In this document: positions 4,626 through 32,844 of the stretch, one piece after another
Layout: every line of letters starts with the position of its first letter
How positions within the stretch are numbered: the stretch's first letter is position 1
From: Thermanaeromonas sp. C210
Lineage (GTDB): Bacteria; Bacillota; DSM-521; Neomoorellales; Neomoorellaceae
Direction of reading: 5' to 3'
Assembly (NCBI RefSeq): GCF_013167955.1
Contig: NZ_BLWF01000001.1
Coordinates: 1-64,000 of the forward strand
DNA length: 64,000 bases
Notes under the pieces: generated by a model
The model's input: only the letters and a program-made list of their open reading frames with translations
Told to the model about the DNA's origin: nothing
Database searches by the model: none
Position numbers and translations under genes: made by a program

Positions 4626-4691
4626 ATCAGGCAAGAATTGGCCACCCCCTGCATATGCTATTTCCAGGAGTATGCAAGGGAGGTGGCTTTT

Positions 4692-5248: not shown

Positions 5249-5345
5249 GTTCCCTTTTCCAGGAGGTTCCTCCGGGGCTAAGAGTAAAGAAGACCACCTG
5301 CGCCTATACTAAATTTTGAAAGTGGAAAGGCGAGGAGGCAAGGAC

Positions 5346-6455
5346 TTGGCGACGAAGCCCGTGCAAGGAGAACAGCGCGCCTTTATGACCGGCAACGAAG
5401 TTATAGCCTGGGCTGCCCTGGCCGCCGGGGCCGAGGTGATGTACGGCTATCCCATCACCCCCCAGAGCGAGATTATGCATTACTGGGCGCGTCTGGCCCC
5501 CAGGTACGGGCGCCGGTTCTTGCAGACGGAAGATGAGCTGGCGGCCGGTTTCACCACCCTGGGGGCGGTTTTGGCCGGCAAGGTGGCCTTCACCGCCACC
5601 GCCGGACCCGGCAACGTCCTCATGCAGGAACCCTTGTCCATGGCCGAGATGATGCGGCTGCCGGTGGTGGTAATCATAGCCCAGCGCGGCGGGCCCTCCA
5701 CGGGGACGGTGATCTATTCCCAGCAGGAGTTCAACCTGACCTGTTTCGGGGGAAACGGCGAGGGCCTGCGGATCGTTTACTCCCCTTCCCACCACCAGGA
5801 ACTCTTCGATTATACCCTCAAAGCCTTCCATACCGCCTGGAAATACCGCTTCCCCACCTTCATCCTGGGAGACGGTTACCAATCTAAAATGCGCGAGGCG
5901 GTGACCCTTTACGATCCGGCCGGGCGAGGCCTGGAAGTGGCGCCATCCCGGCCCCTGGTGGGCGTGCCGGGCACTCCGGGCCGGGACCGGCCTCCAGTCC
6001 ATCTCCGCAACACATATAATCTGGAAGAAGAGCTCTATGAGGCTTTACAGGAAACCATTGAGGCCTATGACCGGGCAGCGCCGGAAATAGTGGAGTGGGA
6101 GGCCTATAGGGCAGAGGACGCCCAATACCTGGTGGTGGCCCACGGCGTGGTGGCCCGGGCCGTCCGCGAGGGAGTGAGGCGCCTCCGGGAAGCCGGCGTG
6201 AAGGCCGGTGCCTTTCGTCCCATTACCCTGCGTCCCTTCCCCCAAAGGGAATTAAGGGAGATGGCTTCGCAGGCTAAACTCGTCCTGGTCATGGAGTCTT
6301 CTTACGGTCAACTGGAACGGGAGGTCAGGGCCCAGCTTTACGGACTTACCGTGCCCTTAAGGGGCTACCGCCGTCCGGGGCTGGGCATTACTCCTGAAGA
6401 AGTAGTTAGGGAGGTGCAAAGGTATGCTTCCCGCTCGGCTGCCCCAGATGCCTGA
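5346..6455 (+). CDS. korA: 2-oxoacid:ferredoxin oxidoreductase, alpha subunit (Kor/Vor type)
   Basis: Oxidatively decarboxylates a 2-oxoacid to the acyl-CoA, reducing ferredoxin. 369 aa from TTG 5346, chosen because GAGGAGG sits 8-9 bases upstream; another TTG at 5316 has no ribosome site. The N-terminal pyrimidine-binding domain shows MYGYPITPQSEIMH and QTEDELAAGFTTLGAVLAGKVAFTATAGPGN, and the C-terminal domain II is present. This split alpha/beta layout is that of 2-oxoglutarate or branched-chain enzymes. The substrate cannot be read from sequence. Gene order is A-B-(C+D fused). Confidence 0.85.
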   Translation: MATKPVQGEQRAFMTGNEVIAWAALAAGAEVMYGYPITPQSEIMHYWARLAPRYGRRFLQTEDELAAGFTTLGAVLAGKVAFTATAGPGNVLMQEPLSMAEMMRLPVVVIIAQRGGPSTGTVIYSQQEFNLTCFGGNGEGLRIVYSPSHHQELFDYTLKAFHTAWKYRFPTFILGDGYQSKMREAVTLYDPAGRGLEVAPSRPLVGVPGTPGRDRPPVHLRNTYNLEEELYEALQETIEAYDRAAPEIVEWEAYRAEDAQYLVVAHGVVARAVREGVRRLREAGVKAGAFRPITLRPFPQRELREMASQAKLVLVMESSYGQLEREVRAQLYGLTVPLRGYRRPGLGITPEEVVREVQRYASRSAAPDA

Positions 6456-7212
6456 GGTCTGGCGCTTAGAAAGCAAACCCCACAAGTTCTGCCCGGGCTG
6501 CGGCCACGGGATAGTACTTAAATGCCTGGGGGAAGCCGTAGGGGAACTGAGGCTGGCAGATAGAACGGTCTTCGCGTGCGACATAGGCTGTTCCCTGTTG
6601 GCCTGGGATTTCTTCAACCTGGATACGGTCCAAACCCACCACGGCCGCACCCTCCCAGTGCTGGCCGGCCTGAAGAGGGTACGGCCCGAACTGGTGGTCG
6701 TGGCTTATATGGGCGACGGCGGCGCTTATGCCATCGGGGCCCAGCACCTCGTGGCTTCGGCCGGCCGCGACGACCCCGTGACCGTCATCGTGGTCAATAA
6801 CACCGTCTATGCCATGACCGGCGGCCAGATGGCCCCCACTACCCTGCCGGAAGAAAAAACGGAAACGAGCCCTTACGGCCGGAGGGTGGAGGAAAGCGGG
6901 CCTTCCCTCCGCGGCCCGGAGCTAGTGGCCAGTATAGCCTCCCCGGGGGCCTATGTGGCCCGCGGGAGCGTGGCACGGGTGAGGCAGTTGAAGGACTTCA
7001 TCAAGAAGGGTCTCCGGGCCCAGGTGGAGGGAGGGCACCTCGCCTTCATTGAAGCCCTCTCCACCTGCCCCACCAACTGGCGTACCAATGCGCGGGAAAC
7101 CTGGCGATTTTTGGAAGAAAAGATGCATAAGCATTTTCCCCTGGGCGAGTATTCCCCGGCCCAGACGGCGAGGGAGGAAGGTGCCGGTGCTCAACCCGCG
7201 AGGAAATCTTAA
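6424..7212 (+). CDS. korB: 2-oxoacid:ferredoxin oxidoreductase, beta subunit (TPP-binding)
   Basis: Carries thiamine pyrophosphate and a 4Fe-4S cluster. 262 aa. The motif CPGCGHG near residue 23 and the TPP/Mg motif GDGGAYAIG...NNTVYAMTGGQ are present. ATG 6424 lies inside the end of korA (32-base overlap) with GGAGG upstream, so the two are translationally coupled. The C-terminal tail (about 240-262) is Ala/Glu-rich and poorly conserved. It overlaps the next gene as well. Confidence 0.87.
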   Translation: MLPARLPQMPEVWRLESKPHKFCPGCGHGIVLKCLGEAVGELRLADRTVFACDIGCSLLAWDFFNLDTVQTHHGRTLPVLAGLKRVRPELVVVAYMGDGGAYAIGAQHLVASAGRDDPVTVIVVNNTVYAMTGGQMAPTTLPEEKTETSPYGRRVEESGPSLRGPELVASIASPGAYVARGSVARVRQLKDFIKKGLRAQVEGGHLAFIEALSTCPTNWRTNARETWRFLEEKMHKHFPLGEYSPAQTAREEGAGAQPARKS

Positions 7213-8119
7213 AATCGTTCTGGCCGGCGAAGGGGGTCAGGGTGTGCAGACGGTAGCCGAGATCATGGCCGAGGCCGCCTACCACAGCGGCTACCAGGCC
7301 CTCTACATTCCCAGCTTCGGGGTGGAACAGAGGGGCGGTGTTTCCCTGGCCTTTGTCCAGATCGGCCAGCACCCCATTGGAGCTCCCGTTTTTTACACGG
7401 CGGACCTGGCCGGGGCCTTCAGCCTCCGGGCCGTAAGGAAGGTCGGTCGCTACCTGGGGGAGGAAACCTGGCTGTTTTATGATGCCCACCTGGAGGAAGA
7501 AGTGAAGGAGCTGTATCCTTCCTTAGAACGCCGGGTAGCCATACCAGCCCTGGAAGTAGCCCGGGTAGAAATGCACCCCCGAGTGTTCAATGTCATTATT
7601 CTCGGTGCCCTCGGGGAGGTCACGGGACTCTTACCCCGGGAGGCGGTGGCGGAGGCCATGGAAAAGCAGCTGGGCCATAAATTCGCTCAGGACCCAAGTC
7701 TCAGGGAGATGAACTGCAGGGCCCTGGAGAGGGGGCGGGAGCTGTGTCGCCAAGCGCTGGCGGGTGAAGGGGCAGCCGGCGGCAGCCCGGCGGAAGACCG
7801 GCAAGGTGTGGCCGGGGAAAGGGGGGCGGAAAAACCGGCCGGCAGGCGGGACGGTTTGGTGCCTGGCTCCCTGGAAGCCATCATTACCGAAGATGGCCAG
7901 GGCCGCTTCTATCTCTACCCCGCCCTGTGCAAGGGGTGCGGCCTATGCATTGAAAAATGCCCGGTCCGGACCATCGGCTGGGCCCGGCAGCTGGGGGCCC
8001 TGGGCACACCCGTAGTGGAGCCGGGCCACGGCGAGCCCTGCATAGCATGCAGGCAATGCCAGCTGGTCTGCCCCGACTGCGCCATATGGATCGAGGGGAG
8101 GGATACGCGTAAGCTGTAG
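7181..8119 (+). CDS. 2-oxoacid:ferredoxin oxidoreductase, gamma subunit fused to a 2[4Fe-4S] ferredoxin domain
   Basis: 312 aa from GTG 7181 (GTG 7187 is an alternative, with better spacing to GGGAGG). Residues about 1-185 are the gamma domain (GEGGQGVQTVAEIMAEAA, FGVEQRGG). A low-complexity Gly/Ala/Glu/Arg linker follows (about 190-230). The C-terminus is a dicluster ferredoxin with CKGCGLCIEKCP and CIACRQCQLVCP. In most Kor enzymes the delta ferredoxin is a separate gene; here it is tethered. It is the last gene of the kor operon, with no terminator seen in the first 100 bases after it. Confidence 0.85.
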   Translation: MPVLNPRGNLKIVLAGEGGQGVQTVAEIMAEAAYHSGYQALYIPSFGVEQRGGVSLAFVQIGQHPIGAPVFYTADLAGAFSLRAVRKVGRYLGEETWLFYDAHLEEEVKELYPSLERRVAIPALEVARVEMHPRVFNVIILGALGEVTGLLPREAVAEAMEKQLGHKFAQDPSLREMNCRALERGRELCRQALAGEGAAGGSPAEDRQGVAGERGAEKPAGRRDGLVPGSLEAIITEDGQGRFYLYPALCKGCGLCIEKCPVRTIGWARQLGALGTPVVEPGHGEPCIACRQCQLVCPDCAIWIEGRDTRKL

Positions 8120-24524: not shown

Positions 24525-28076
<3,552 letters not shown>

Positions 28077-28536: not shown

Positions 28537-28565
28537 TTGACAGGTTCCGGCTTCAATGGTATACT
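28537..28565 (+). promoter_or_regulatory. sigma-A promoter of the formyltransferase-like gene
   Basis: TTGACA at 28537-28542, 17 bp spacer, TATACT at 28560-28565. The rest of 28056-28708 holds the PFOR promoter and the doubtful small ORF on the minus strand. The leader to 28709 is about 135 bases with no structure I can name. Confidence 0.8.
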
Positions 28566-28708
28566 CAATTTAAAAATTACAAACCTTAAGGGGAGAACCG
28601 TTCCCCGGGCCGCCGCGGCAGCCTTCACGGTAAACACCTGGTGGAAGAAGGCCGGGGAAGGGGAAGGTGCGCACAAAGCCGATATACTACATAGGGGGAG
28701 GGGAAGAA

Positions 28709-29656
28709 TTGCGCATTGTTTTTATAGGGCAGGCCCCCTTCGGGCGAGACTGCCTGCAAGCCCTTATTGACCAAGGCGAAAAAATTGTCGGAGTATTAAC
28801 AATACCCGATAAACCCGACCAGAAAACCCCCAATCCGGTTAAGGAATTGGCCCTGGAGCGGGGGATACCTTTACTTCAGCCCCCCAGGCTTAAGGATCAG
28901 GAAGCCATCGCCTGGGTGGCGGATCTCCAGCCCGACCTTCTGGTGCTGGCCTATGTTACCCAATTTGTCCCCAAGGCCATGATCGACCTGGCGACCCACG
29001 GAGGAATAAACTTCCATCCTTCTCTGCTTCCCAAGTACCGGGGCGGGAGCGCCATGAACTGGGCCGTTATAGCCGGAGAAAAGGAAACCGGCGTGACCAT
29101 CCACCAGATTGACGAAGGTGTGGATACCGGCCCCGTCATTCTGCAGGAGAGAGTCCCCATCGATCCCGACGACAGCGTGAAAACCCTTTACTTTGGCAAG
29201 ATCTACCCCCTGGGCGTAAAACTGGTGGCGGAGGCCGTCCGCCTCATCCGGGAGGGCAAAGCCCGGCCGGTACCCCAGGACGAAAGCCAGGCCTCTTTCC
29301 AGCCGGTCATTAAGGAGGAGCACGTGGGCCTGGACTGGTCCCAGCCCACGCCAAAGCTTTATAATTTGATCCGCGGCTCCGACCCCACACCGGGCGCCTG
29401 GGCCGTGTTCCGGGGTGAAAAGCTAAAGATCTGGGAGGCCATGCCCTGGGAAGGCGGGGGCACGCCGGGCGAAGTCCTGGACGTCCGGGACGACGGCTTC
29501 GTAGTGGCCACCGGTGACGGCGCCCTACTGGTAAAGAGGGTGCAGTTTACAGGCACCGGCAAAATACCGGCCGCCGAATGGGCCAGGTCCCAGGGCCTAC
29601 GGGCGGGCGATAAATTGGAGCCGGGGCGGGCTGAACTCCCGTTTAATTTGCCTTAA
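28709..29656 (+). CDS. formyl-THF hydrolase/formyltransferase-family protein (like the N-terminal domain of 10-formyl-THF dehydrogenase)
   Basis: 315 aa from TTG 28709, chosen because the family begins MRIVFIGQAPFG and GGGGAGGGG lies upstream; a GTG at 28667 would add 14 residues. Active-site Asn101, His103 and Asp139 (GINFHPSLLPKYRGG, IDEGVDTG) are in place. Blocks such as GVLTIPDKPD, SAMNWAVIAGEKE, IRGSDPTPGAW and LLVKRVQFTGTGKIPA fit the hydrolase domain of formyl-THF dehydrogenase better than methionyl-tRNA formyltransferase, judged from memory. It could release formate from 10-formyl-THF. Its own promoter precedes it; the por operon follows. Confidence 0.75.
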   Translation: MRIVFIGQAPFGRDCLQALIDQGEKIVGVLTIPDKPDQKTPNPVKELALERGIPLLQPPRLKDQEAIAWVADLQPDLLVLAYVTQFVPKAMIDLATHGGINFHPSLLPKYRGGSAMNWAVIAGEKETGVTIHQIDEGVDTGPVILQERVPIDPDDSVKTLYFGKIYPLGVKLVAEAVRLIREGKARPVPQDESQASFQPVIKEEHVGLDWSQPTPKLYNLIRGSDPTPGAWAVFRGEKLKIWEAMPWEGGGTPGEVLDVRDDGFVVATGDGALLVKRVQFTGTGKIPAAEWARSQGLRAGDKLEPGRAELPFNLP

Positions 29657-29727
29657 TCTTAAGGCAGGACAATTAAATTAAAATACATAGAAGGGGTGGG
29701 GTTAGCGAATTAAGTACATTTTAACTG

Positions 29728-29745
29728 TTGTGAAACACTGCACAA
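29728..29745 (+). promoter_or_regulatory. near-consensus Rex operator before porC
   Basis: TTGTGAAACACTGCACAA differs from the Rex consensus TTGTGAA-N4-TTCACAA at one base. It lies 22 bases before the porC start codon. Rex is the NADH/NAD-sensing repressor of fermentative genes in Firmicutes. No rex gene is in the window. Confidence 0.7.
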
Positions 29746-29767
29746 ATACGGGAGAGGAGGAACTGAT

Positions 29768-30343
29768 ATGGCTAAAATGGTTGAGATCCGCTGGCATGCC
29801 CGCGGCGGCCAGGGCGCAGTCTTGGCCTCCCGTTACCTGGCAGCCTCGGCCATACGGGAGAACCTGTATTTCCAGGCCTTCCCCCAGTTCGGTACCGAGA
29901 GAATGGGAGCTCCCATTGTAGCCTATACCCGCATAAGCGATGCTCCCATTAATTTACGCTGTGCCATCGAGCAGCCCGACATGGTGGTGGTACTGGACCC
30001 CACTTTGCTGAAGGCCGTGAAGGTGACCGCCAACCTCAAAGAAGGCGGGGCGGTTATTGCCAATTATCCGGGCACGGCCGCGGACCTGGCCCGGGAACTG
30101 GGAGTAGACGGCCAGTTCAAAGTCTACGCGGTGGATGCCTATAAGATTTCCAGCGAAGAGCTGGGCCGCCCCATTCCCAACACTCCGATGGTAGGGGCCC
30201 TGGCACGGGTCATGGGGCTCATTAAGCTGGAAAACATCCTGGCGGAGTTTGAAGAGCAATTCAGCCACCGCTTCAAACCCGAAATCGTGCAAAAAAATCT
30301 CAATGCCGTGCGCCGGGCTTATGAGGAGGTGCGGGGTTTATAA
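29768..30343 (+). CDS. porC: 2-oxoacid (pyruvate):ferredoxin oxidoreductase, gamma subunit
   Basis: 191 aa gamma subunit, CoA-binding. Motifs ARGGQGAVLASRYLA and FGTERMGAPIVAYTRI. First of four genes porC-porD-porA-porB with overlaps or short gaps. GAGAGGAGG precedes ATG 29768. The four-subunit arrangement is that of archaeal and Thermotoga pyruvate or 2-ketoisovalerate enzymes; the substrate is not certain. Confidence 0.9.
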   Translation: MAKMVEIRWHARGGQGAVLASRYLAASAIRENLYFQAFPQFGTERMGAPIVAYTRISDAPINLRCAIEQPDMVVVLDPTLLKAVKVTANLKEGGAVIANYPGTAADLARELGVDGQFKVYAVDAYKISSEELGRPIPNTPMVGALARVMGLIKLENILAEFEEQFSHRFKPEIVQKNLNAVRRAYEEVRGL

Positions 30344-30666
30344 TGGTCCAGATCAACAACGCCATCCGCAGGCTGGACAAAACGGCCTTTCCCGCGTGGT
30401 ATGAGATTCCCCTGGGAGGAACCCTGGTTTCCGAGGGCTCCACGGAATACAAGACGGGGGGCTGGCGGACCAAGAGGCCCATCTGGGATCCCGAAGACTG
30501 CTCCCATTGCCTCATCTGCTGGATTTACTGCCCGGAAATGGCCATTCAAGTTAAGGACGGGAAAATCACCGGCATCGATACCACCCTTTGCAAGGGCTGC
30601 GGTATCTGTGCCCAGGAATGTCCCAGGGAAAAGGCCATGACCATGGCCGAAGGTGGGGATTACTAG
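30343..30666 (+). CDS. porD: 2-oxoacid (pyruvate):ferredoxin oxidoreductase, delta (ferredoxin) subunit
   Basis: 107 aa with two 4Fe-4S motifs, CSHCLICWIYCPEMA and CKGCGICAQECPREKA, carrying electrons to external ferredoxin. Starts in the porC stop (TAATG). Confidence 0.92.
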   Translation: MVQINNAIRRLDKTAFPAWYEIPLGGTLVSEGSTEYKTGGWRTKRPIWDPEDCSHCLICWIYCPEMAIQVKDGKITGIDTTLCKGCGICAQECPREKAMTMAEGGDY

Positions 30667-30718
30667 GCCCTTGCCCCGGGGGACAACAAGCCGGGATAAT
30701 CGGGAAGGAGGAACAAGG

Positions 30719-31906
30719 ATGCGGAAAACCATCGGGTTGACCGGGGACGGCGCGGCCGCCGAGGCCATGCGCCAGATCGACCCGGATGTGGTGGCGGCCT
30801 ATCCTATCACACCCCAGACCGAGATTGTAGAACGCTTTGCCGAGTTCGTGGCCGACGGTTCGGTGAAAACGGAGCTGGTGGCCGTGGAGAGCGAGCACAG
30901 CGCCATGAGCGCCTGCTGCGGCTCCTCGGCGGCTGGGGCCCGTACCATCACCTGTACATCCTCCCAGGGCCTGGCCCTCATGCACGAGGTCCTGTATATT
31001 GCCGCCGGCAATCGGCATCCCATAGTCTTGATCAATGTTAACCGCACCCTGTCGGCCCCCATTAACATCCACAACGACCAGAGCGACAGCCTGGGCTCCC
31101 GGGACTGCGGCTGGATCCAGCTCTACTGCGAGGGCGCCCAGGAAGTATACGATACCGTGATCCAGGCGGTACGGATCGCGGAGAATCCTTCGGTTCTGCT
31201 GCCCGTAATGGTTTGCCTGGACGGGTTTGTGGTCAGCCACAACGTGGAACCCATTAACGTCCTCGATGACCAGGAAGTCAAGGATTTTGTGGGCGAGTTC
31301 CGGCCGGCCTACAGCCTGTTGGATACGGAAAACCCCGTCTGCCTGGGCAACCTGACCTTGCCTGAGTATTTCTTCGAACATAAGTACTCCCAGGCTTACG
31401 CCTTAGAGCAGTCTAAGGGAGTCATAGAGGCCGTGGACAAAGAATTCGGCGCGAAGTTCGGCCGCAGTTACGGGATTGTGGAGGGCTACCGCCTGGAAGA
31501 TGCGGAAATCGCCATCGTGACCCTGGGTTCCATGGTGGGCACGGCCCGCGCGGTGACCGATGAACTCCGCGGCCAGGGCGTGAAGGCCGGGGTCCTCAAG
31601 ATCCGCTGTTACCGGCCCTTCCCCATAGAGGAGGTGGCTGCGGCCCTCAAGGGCGTCAAGGCGGCGGCGGTTATGGAGAAGGCCCTCTCTCCCGGCGCTC
31701 CGGGACCGGCCGTCTTCAGCGATGTGTTGGGCGCCCTTTATCATAAAGGAGTACAGGTCAACCTGATAAGTTACGTAGCCGGCCTCGGCGGGCGGGATGT
31801 ACCGGCCCGGAGCATACGCAGGGTATACGAGCACCTGCAGAGGATCGCTTCGTCCGGCCAAGTAGACCGTATCCTCAACTACCTGGACCTGAGGGGGTGG
31901 CAATAA
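30719..31906 (+). CDS. porA: 2-oxoacid (pyruvate):ferredoxin oxidoreductase, alpha subunit
   Basis: 395 aa from ATG 30719, with GGAAGGAGG just upstream; a start at 30653 would overlap porD without a ribosome site. Shows VVAAYPITPQTEIVE, the GARTITCTSSQGLALMHE block and the NVNRTLSAPINIHNDQSD stretch typical of pyruvate-type enzymes. The last of these favours pyruvate over other 2-oxoacids. Coupled to porB through TAATG. Confidence 0.92.
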   Translation: MRKTIGLTGDGAAAEAMRQIDPDVVAAYPITPQTEIVERFAEFVADGSVKTELVAVESEHSAMSACCGSSAAGARTITCTSSQGLALMHEVLYIAAGNRHPIVLINVNRTLSAPINIHNDQSDSLGSRDCGWIQLYCEGAQEVYDTVIQAVRIAENPSVLLPVMVCLDGFVVSHNVEPINVLDDQEVKDFVGEFRPAYSLLDTENPVCLGNLTLPEYFFEHKYSQAYALEQSKGVIEAVDKEFGAKFGRSYGIVEGYRLEDAEIAIVTLGSMVGTARAVTDELRGQGVKAGVLKIRCYRPFPIEEVAAALKGVKAAAVMEKALSPGAPGPAVFSDVLGALYHKGVQVNLISYVAGLGGRDVPARSIRRVYEHLQRIASSGQVDRILNYLDLRGWQ

Positions 31907-32844
31907 TGGCGAGCCTTAGGGAACTCAGCCAGAAGGAAGTACTCTTCACCGGCGGCCACCGCCTGTGCGCCGGCTGCCCCGCGCCCATCGTAGTAAAGCA
32001 GGCCCTGCTGGCCGCGTCCCAGGCGCCCATTGTAGTCCAGCCCACCTGCTGCCTGGAGATTTCTTCGGCCGTCTTCCCCTATACGGCCTGGAAGACCCCC
32101 TATTATCACAATGCCTTCGAGAACGCGGCGGCGGTAGCCTCTGGCATCGAGGCGGCCGTCAAGGCCCTTAAGAAACGGGGCAAACTGGACCAGCAAAAAG
32201 AGTTCGCCATTATCGCCATCGGCGGCGACGGCGGCACCTACGATATCGGCTTCCAGGCCCTCTCGGGCATGCTGGAGCGGGGGCACCGGGTTCTCTACAT
32301 CTGCTACGACAACGGAGCCTACATGAACACCGGTATCCAGCGTTCCGGCGCCACCCCCTACGGCGCCTGGACCACCACCAGCCACGTTGGGGAAGCCCAG
32401 AAGGGTAAACAACAGCACCGCAAGGACCTGGCCTGGATTGCCGCCGCCCACGGGGCCTACGTGGCCAATGCCTCCCTGCACAACTGGCGGGATTTTATGC
32501 GCAAAGTAGAGAAGGCCCTGAACTACGAGGGCTCCTCCTTTATTAACATCCAGGCTCCCTGCCCGCGCGGCTGGCGCTTCCCCGAAAACATGACCGTGGA
32601 AATCGCCCGCCTGGGTACCGAAACCTGCTTCTACCCCCTCTTTGAAGTGGAGGACCGTGGCCAGAAGTGGGTCATCAACTACACTCCCAAGAATAAGCTG
32701 CCCGTAACGGAGTACCTGAAGCCCCAGGGCCGCTTCGCCCACTTCTTCCAGAAGGGCAACGAATACCTTATCGAAGAATTCCAGGCGGAAGTGGACCGGC
32801 GCTGGGAGCACCTGCAGCGCCTGGCCAAGGTGAGCGCCGAGTAA
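31906..32844 (+). CDS. porB: 2-oxoacid (pyruvate):ferredoxin oxidoreductase, beta subunit
   Basis: 312 aa TPP-binding subunit. CAGCPAPIVVKQAL near residue 23, GGDGGTYDIGFQALSG for TPP/Mg, and DNGAYMNTGIQRSGATPYGAWTTT are characteristic of PorB. ATG 31906 shares a base with the porA stop; an in-frame GTG at 31897 is less likely. Confidence 0.93.
   Translation: MASLRELSQKEVLFTGGHRLCAGCPAPIVVKQALLAASQAPIVVQPTCCLEISSAVFPYTAWKTPYYHNAFENAAAVASGIEAAVKALKKRGKLDQQKEFAIIAIGGDGGTYDIGFQALSGMLERGHRVLYICYDNGAYMNTGIQRSGATPYGAWTTTSHVGEAQKGKQQHRKDLAWIAAAHGAYVANASLHNWRDFMRKVEKALNYEGSSFINIQAPCPRGWRFPENMTVEIARLGTETCFYPLFEVEDRGQKWVINYTPKNKLPVTEYLKPQGRFAHFFQKGNEYLIEEFQAEVDRRWEHLQRLAKVSAE

Follow-up and report, generated by a model that had tools for sequence, protein, structure and literature searches.

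The por operon and its upstream region

The window analysed here, a 64,000-nucleotide stretch of the Thermanaeromonas sp. C210 genome, encodes, as porCDAB, the four subunits of a pyruvate-type 2-oxoacid:ferredoxin oxidoreductase, assigned from NCBIfam profiles (Table 1). The gamma and delta subunits score above their equivalog cut-offs; the alpha and beta subunits fall below theirs, with PorA and PorB as the top matches. Two further enzymes of the 2-oxoacid:ferredoxin oxidoreductase type, a single-chain pyruvate:ferredoxin oxidoreductase (PFOR) and a Kor/Vor-type enzyme, are encoded in the same window.

Table 1. Coordinates of the por region and of the other 2-oxoacid oxidoreductase genes in the window
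Feature	Position	Strand	Basis
Kor/Vor-type 2-oxoacid oxidoreductase subunits, without Rex-like site upstream	5316..8119	+	upstream scan
Single-chain PFOR, without Rex-like site upstream	24525..28055	-	TIGR02176; divergent to formyltransferase
Strong sigma-A promoter candidate TTGACA-N17-TATACT before formyltransferase	28537..28565	+	promoter scan
fmt-like formyltransferase, immediately 5' of por	28667..29656	+	TIGR00460 above cut-off
Weak promoter candidate TTAAGT-N18-AACACT, extended TG, -10 within operator	29710..29739	+	top score
Candidate Rex operator TTGTGAAACACTGCACAA	29728..29745	.	consensus match, shuffles
Ribosome-binding site gagaggagg, 7 bp 5' of porC start	29752..29760	+	direct reading
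porC (gamma subunit)	29768..30343	+	TIGR02175 above cut-off
porD (delta, ferredoxin-type subunit)	30343..30666	+	TIGR02179 above cut-off
porA (alpha subunit)	30653..31906	+	top match NF040682, 522 bits against a cut-off of 550
porB (beta subunit)	31897..32844	+	top match NF008819, 350 bits against a cut-off of 405

The sequence TTGTGAAACACTGCACAA is an 18-bp inverted repeat whose 3' edge lies 22 bp from the porC ATG. Of the 14 fixed positions in the Rex consensus TTGTGAAN4TTCACAA, in the form given in the parts of PMC6391272 and PMC13077300 considered here, it agrees at 13, and its one odd base is a G for T in the right half. The original prediction had placed a Rex operator one base from the consensus at exactly these coordinates, and both the position and the single mismatch in 14 bases hold, with the runner-up for the full consensus in the window showing four mismatches.

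How rare is such a sequence? The core pattern TTGTG-N8-CACAA occurs intact only once in the window, at TTGTGAAACACTGCACAA; allowing up to two mismatches gives nine matches, eight of them with two mismatches, a total that is not above that of shuffled windows (mean 14.3). When the 111-bp gap before porC was shuffled with its dinucleotides preserved, 1 of 20,000 shuffles equalled TTGTGAAACACTGCACAA. Genome-wide, where scans counted mismatches against the consensus and used the reversed pattern as the control, two places have at most one mismatch compared with none for the control, and base composition predicts 0.1–0.75 such places. At up to three mismatches, the genome holds 53 places and the control 43, near background, so that a weaker site carries weight only if something else supports it; the individual places discussed below are those listed among these 53. 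On the basis of its sequence and rarity, we consider TTGTGAAACACTGCACAA probably a real Rex operator rather than a product of chance.

The position of the repeat relative to the putative por promoter is compatible with repression. Under our own scoring scheme, which awards a bonus for an extended TG, the top-scoring promoter candidate places its extended -10 element within the site in all three orthologous upstream regions compared (the window, G018 and L028). This candidate is strong in L028 (TTGGCA-N17-AATAAT) and weak in the window, and a stricter promoter scan returned no promoter at the por site. A -10 candidate lying within the operator would suit a repressor. The formyltransferase gene and por could also be co-transcribed, in which case the sigma-A promoter candidate before the formyltransferase could drive por from beyond the operator, and because of this possible read-through Rex control of por may be partial. 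Among relatives tested, an fmt-like formyltransferase gene lies within reach of porC in five of eight (L021, L028, L030, L031 and L032).

A GGAGGTG-like or GGGGTG stretch, found by eye 60–80 nt before porC in four loci (29690–29707 in the window, and L021, L028 and L030), resembles a ribosome-binding site serving a short leader frame. Together with the ability of UUGUG and CACAA to pair in the transcript, this recurring stretch could be taken to indicate an RNA element, a hairpin or a leader, acting on the por message; the predicted fold of positions 29690–29775, in contrast, does not stand clearly above those of shuffled sequences (z -1.12, 29 of 200 equal), and we regard an element of this kind as extremely improbable.

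The Rex protein and the distribution of the site

The original prediction presupposed a rex gene, and one canonical copy is present: the PF06971 profile detects a single rex gene in the genome (G000 C2 near 110148), whose product combines this winged-helix domain with an NAD-binding domain (PF02629). The protein matches eight distinct solved Rex sequences, 5zz5 being the best, and over its DNA-binding region it is almost the same as the main Rex of its relatives. Our comparison set comprised 22 genomes of the order (the family being Neomoorellaceae in the NCBI taxonomy), 20 of which have a Rex match. The 300 bp upstream of the organism's own rex contain no autoregulatory site, the best place having six mismatches. 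A second, divergent Rex-like protein (VDPSVIRKDLAWFGELG; L176–L185) occurs in 9 of the 11 genomes of genus g5 and in G004; the genome studied here has none. We infer that g5 (G005–G015) is Moorella.

Relatives of PorC at a threshold of 1e-40 are found in 8 of the 22 genomes. The closest por operon, that of G018, carries TTGTGAAATGTTGCACAT at the same place with two mismatches, equalled by 18 of 20,000 shuffles. In L028 (Thermanaeromonas sp. bin 19, with match coordinates equal to those of G017), the left half TTGTGAAA is retained and the right half is degraded, leaving four mismatches that 2,422 of 20,000 shuffles equal. The por upstream region of L029, whose match coordinates equal those of G004, has only a four-mismatch place, and those of L030–L032 have none. 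A wider scan of 53 of 54 PorC-homologue loci (L060, with a short upstream region, was omitted) yielded no convincing site outside the close relatives, the best being three-mismatch places in L055 and L066. Judged from these upstream regions, the por operator would at most be a feature of the near lineage. Separately, a half-site-like TACACAA follows the por site by 10–11 bases in the two relatives G018 (L021) and L028, its spacing differing by one base between them, and is not seen in the window.

This patchy conservation raises the question of whether the inverted repeat arose by chance, with its left half TTGTGAAA serving merely as an extended -10 element. The start of the -10 candidate within the left half in three orthologues, the degraded right half in L028 and the near-background number of weak matches in the genome would all fit such an explanation. 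Against it stand the rarity of equal shuffles for the window gap and for G018, and the recurrence of the right half GCACAA, which the por site has in common with the organism's own acs site (read on the reverse strand) and with the hydrogenase site at C3:15808. Moreover, across the 22 genomes, 18 places lie within one mismatch of the consensus compared with 6 for the reversed pattern. We therefore judge a chance repeat to be quite unlikely and retain the reading of TTGTGAAACACTGCACAA as a probable Rex operator.

No comparable site precedes the other 2-oxoacid:ferredoxin oxidoreductases of the window. Upstream of the single-chain PFOR, the best place has eight mismatches within 245 bp and seven within about 300 bp; among 18 PFOR loci, each from a different one of the 22 order genomes, no upstream place comes closer than four mismatches, a level reached in 2 of the 18. 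In the 250 bp before each of the Kor-type frames at 4655, 5316, 6424 and 7049, the best places have seven, six, six and five mismatches, respectively. These counts (seven to eight mismatches for PFOR, five to seven for the Kor-type frames) agree with the original prediction that neither enzyme has a Rex site. Its corollary, that the NADH/NAD ratio controls Por alone, stands among the 2-oxoacid:ferredoxin oxidoreductases of the window and is too restrictive genome-wide, where the operon for carbon monoxide dehydrogenase/acetyl-CoA synthase (CODH/ACS) and two [FeFe]-hydrogenase clusters have related candidate sites. We propose to replace it with a small redox regulon that would include CODH/ACS and, less surely, the hydrogenases.

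Related sites at CODH/ACS, fhs and hydrogenase genes

The site at C3:454015 (TTGTGCAGAATTTCACTA) has two mismatches, with 53 of 20,000 shuffles equal, and heads an operon of a cooC-like gene followed by genes for CODH, ACS, the gamma subunit and AcsV. On the reverse strand it reads TAGTGAA-N4-TGCACAA, its right half being the same as that of the por site. To place it in context, we considered 22 cooC loci in 17 genomes, of which 16 are followed by a gene of 65–100% identity to the organism's own CODH at this locus and 5 by a distant CODH (41–51%), with neither in reach at the remaining one. The acs site, with two mismatches, is found at 12 of the 16 acs-linked loci and at none of the five cooC loci before another CODH. 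Among the other four acs-linked loci, L145 has a three-mismatch place further upstream and L148–L150 have none.

In an alignment of the 12 acs sites, the columns GCAGGA, TTGTG, GAA and TTCACTA are invariant; since the rows were picked with the pattern TTGTG-N8-CACTA, the constancy of its letters is in part an effect of that choice, which does not apply to GCAGGA and GAA. The combination GCAGGA...GAA before the CODH/ACS operon has what we take to be the shape of a sigma-H promoter. In this arrangement, seen in L101 at 8016–8033 (C3:454015) and in 11 further loci (12 genomes in all), the inverted repeat TTGTG-N8-CACTA lies over the -10 element of the sigma-H-like promoter, and the same layout is found before fhs, the gene for formate-THF ligase, in genus g5. 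The idea that the acs and fhs repeats are a mere part of a sigma-H-like promoter was set aside, as neither TTGTG nor TTCACTA occurs in the other promoters of like shape at the loci compared; the acs repeat would thus be an addition covering the -10 element.

At fhs, 10 of the 11 g5 loci carry a site with one to three mismatches close to the start. Outside g5, three of 11 fhs loci have a three-mismatch place and eight, the organism's own included, have at least four mismatches; its own fhs has no site, the best place showing six. The G015 fhs site, TTATG..CATAA, keeps its symmetry through changes on both sides.

Two sites, C3:15611 (two mismatches) and C3:15808 (TCGTGAAGGCAAGCACAA, three mismatches), precede genes of the hydC, hydB and hydA type. 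The latter reads TCGTGAA-N4-AGCACAA and directly follows a TATAAT box, and 19 of 20,000 shuffles of the gap before these genes equal its best site. A further place, C2:203212 (three mismatches), lies ~180 bp before the first gene, 2Fe-2S thioredoxin-like, of a second [FeFe]-hydrogenase cluster. Taken alone, these three hydrogenase sites are at background strength, and we treat them as weaker candidates. Across the order, 8 of the 18 places within one mismatch, in 8 of the 11 g5 genomes, lie directly before one hydrogenase-cluster gene, whose products are 65.9–100% identical to that of L086; it is the first gene of its cluster, which also encodes an ATPase of histidine-kinase type and a protein whose C-terminal domain is that of an [FeFe]-hydrogenase (L084, L086). 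The rest comprise two at fhs, one at por, one at a Sulf_transp gene and six at other or no clear targets, the six being an acyl-CoA dehydrogenase (L082), an Fe-S/cytochrome b pair (L091), a LUD-domain protein (L094), an acetyltransferase (L093), the start of a frame called mfd-like from its likeness, by eye, to L010 (L083), and a place without a clear target (L095).

Could the por repeat belong to a regulator other than Rex? The genome encodes one CRP-family protein, with cNMP-binding and Crp helix-turn-helix domains and the recognition helix SRETVARIL; a CRP type with this helix presumably recognizes TGTGA-N6-TCACA, which is the core of the Rex repeat as well. The por site, TGTGA-N6-GCACA, matches 9 of the 10 bases of this core, and a CRP-type regulator of the TGTGA-N6-TCACA class is accordingly the main rival to Rex. 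However, a site 22 bp before the start codon that overlaps or follows the promoter candidates is unlike the usual position of an activator site, the por site retains the outer TT and AA that the Rex consensus requires, the related sites lie over the -10 elements of acs promoters, and the targets are of the kind expected for Rex. A CRP-type regulator at the por site appears unlikely to us.

Interpretation and further candidate sites

Taken together, we favor, with a probability of roughly 0.7, the reading that the 18-bp repeat is the operator of the single Rex protein, which would repress porCDAB when NADH is scarce as part of a wider regulon. At low NADH, Rex would cover the extended -10 element of porCDAB and keep its promoter silent. 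A rise in NADH, as may occur on H2, CO or another reduced substrate, would release Rex, and Por would be produced along with CODH/ACS and the [FeFe]-hydrogenases, whose genes bear related sites. Por would then function mainly as a pyruvate synthase, downstream of the acetyl-CoA of the Wood-Ljungdahl pathway, and the single-chain PFOR would be expressed from a promoter outside Rex control.

More tentatively, and with less than even confidence, one may consider that in this family of acetogen relatives the entire reductive route answers to the NADH/NAD ratio through Rex: CODH/ACS and, in g5 (probably Moorella), formate-THF ligase, both from a sigma-H-like promoter with the Rex repeat over its -10 element, [FeFe]-hydrogenases and this lineage's dedicated four-subunit pyruvate synthase, with PFOR left free. 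Por in assimilation and PFOR in pyruvate oxidation would then form a redox-switched pair.

How does this proposal relate to known systems? The por site resembles known Rex operators in being an 18-bp repeat near a start codon, in a genome with a rex gene and with hydrogenase and pyruvate enzymes as putative targets; it differs in the G for T of the right half, which recurs in the organism's own acs and hydrogenase sites. In Caldicellulosiruptor bescii, Rex represses a four-gene pyruvate/ketoisovalerate:ferredoxin oxidoreductase operon, with support from gel shifts, and its targets also list the Hyd hydrogenase operon (PMC6391272, in the passages considered). Control of a multi-subunit Por by Rex would be common to both organisms; here, a single-chain PFOR that has no site exists beside the putatively regulated Por.

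For Calderihabitans maritimus, the relevant passages of PMC7306483 report Rex-like TTGTGA-N6-TCACAA motifs before cooS2-ech1, hyd-3b, kor, fdh and nap. The type of motif, the thermophilic, CO-using lifestyle and the choice of ferredoxin enzymes as targets are alike, whereas the motif is found at Kor there and at Por here, and the acs operon is absent from the targets named in those passages. The same passages cite Zhang 2014 for regulation of Wood-Ljungdahl enzymes by Rex in Clostridium. In Parageobacillus, a Rex-like motif lies some 36 bp before cooCSF, according to the part of PMC13077300 considered; this is likewise a motif before a CODH operon, serving, in contrast to CODH/ACS, a hydrogen-forming CODH/ECH system. 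A different promoter motif is described for the Wood-Ljungdahl genes of C. autoethanogenum, and the passages of PMC6873888 considered here do not name Rex.

The pairings of Rex with Por and of Rex with the Wood-Ljungdahl pathway are thus already known elsewhere. Our search, which covered part of the literature, found none that describes Rex sites upstream of por, acs or fhs in relatives of Moorella, and the putative wider Wood-Ljungdahl regulon is a more interesting by-product of this analysis than the por site. Little is known of how acetogens and their relatives control carbon fixation and pyruvate synthesis. With a probable Rex site at one of two co-existing pyruvate:ferredoxin enzymes, in conjunction with the related sites over CODH/ACS promoters, it becomes directly testable whether the reductive route is governed by NADH and whether NADH sets the two enzymes apart.

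Among the places listed in the genome with at most two mismatches, three of seven are the por, acs and hydrogenase sites and four are without a clear redox target. Several candidates were rejected on account of their position within open frames, namely C4:430095, a second exact TTGTG-N8-CACAA place that falls within a 155-aa open frame, and C1:455873, C1:639490, C1:709595, C1:709883 and C1:70006, the last in an mfd-like gene. The clostridial form of the Rex motif, TTGTTAA-N4-TTAACAA, was likewise set aside, with six genome places at up to two mismatches against six for the control. The places at C2:360893 and C2:363797/363886 lie near DUF4418, cytochrome-like and FtsX/MacB-type genes. At C1:357247 (L104, 7248), TAGTGAAGGCCTTCACAA, with one mismatch, directly precedes a Sulf_transp gene next to a divergent LysR gene, and this gene is a possible further Rex target. 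Finally, TTGTAAGATTCTTAACAA at C4:89084 (L217, 3085), with three mismatches, lies 17 bp before a molybdopterin oxidoreductase frame.
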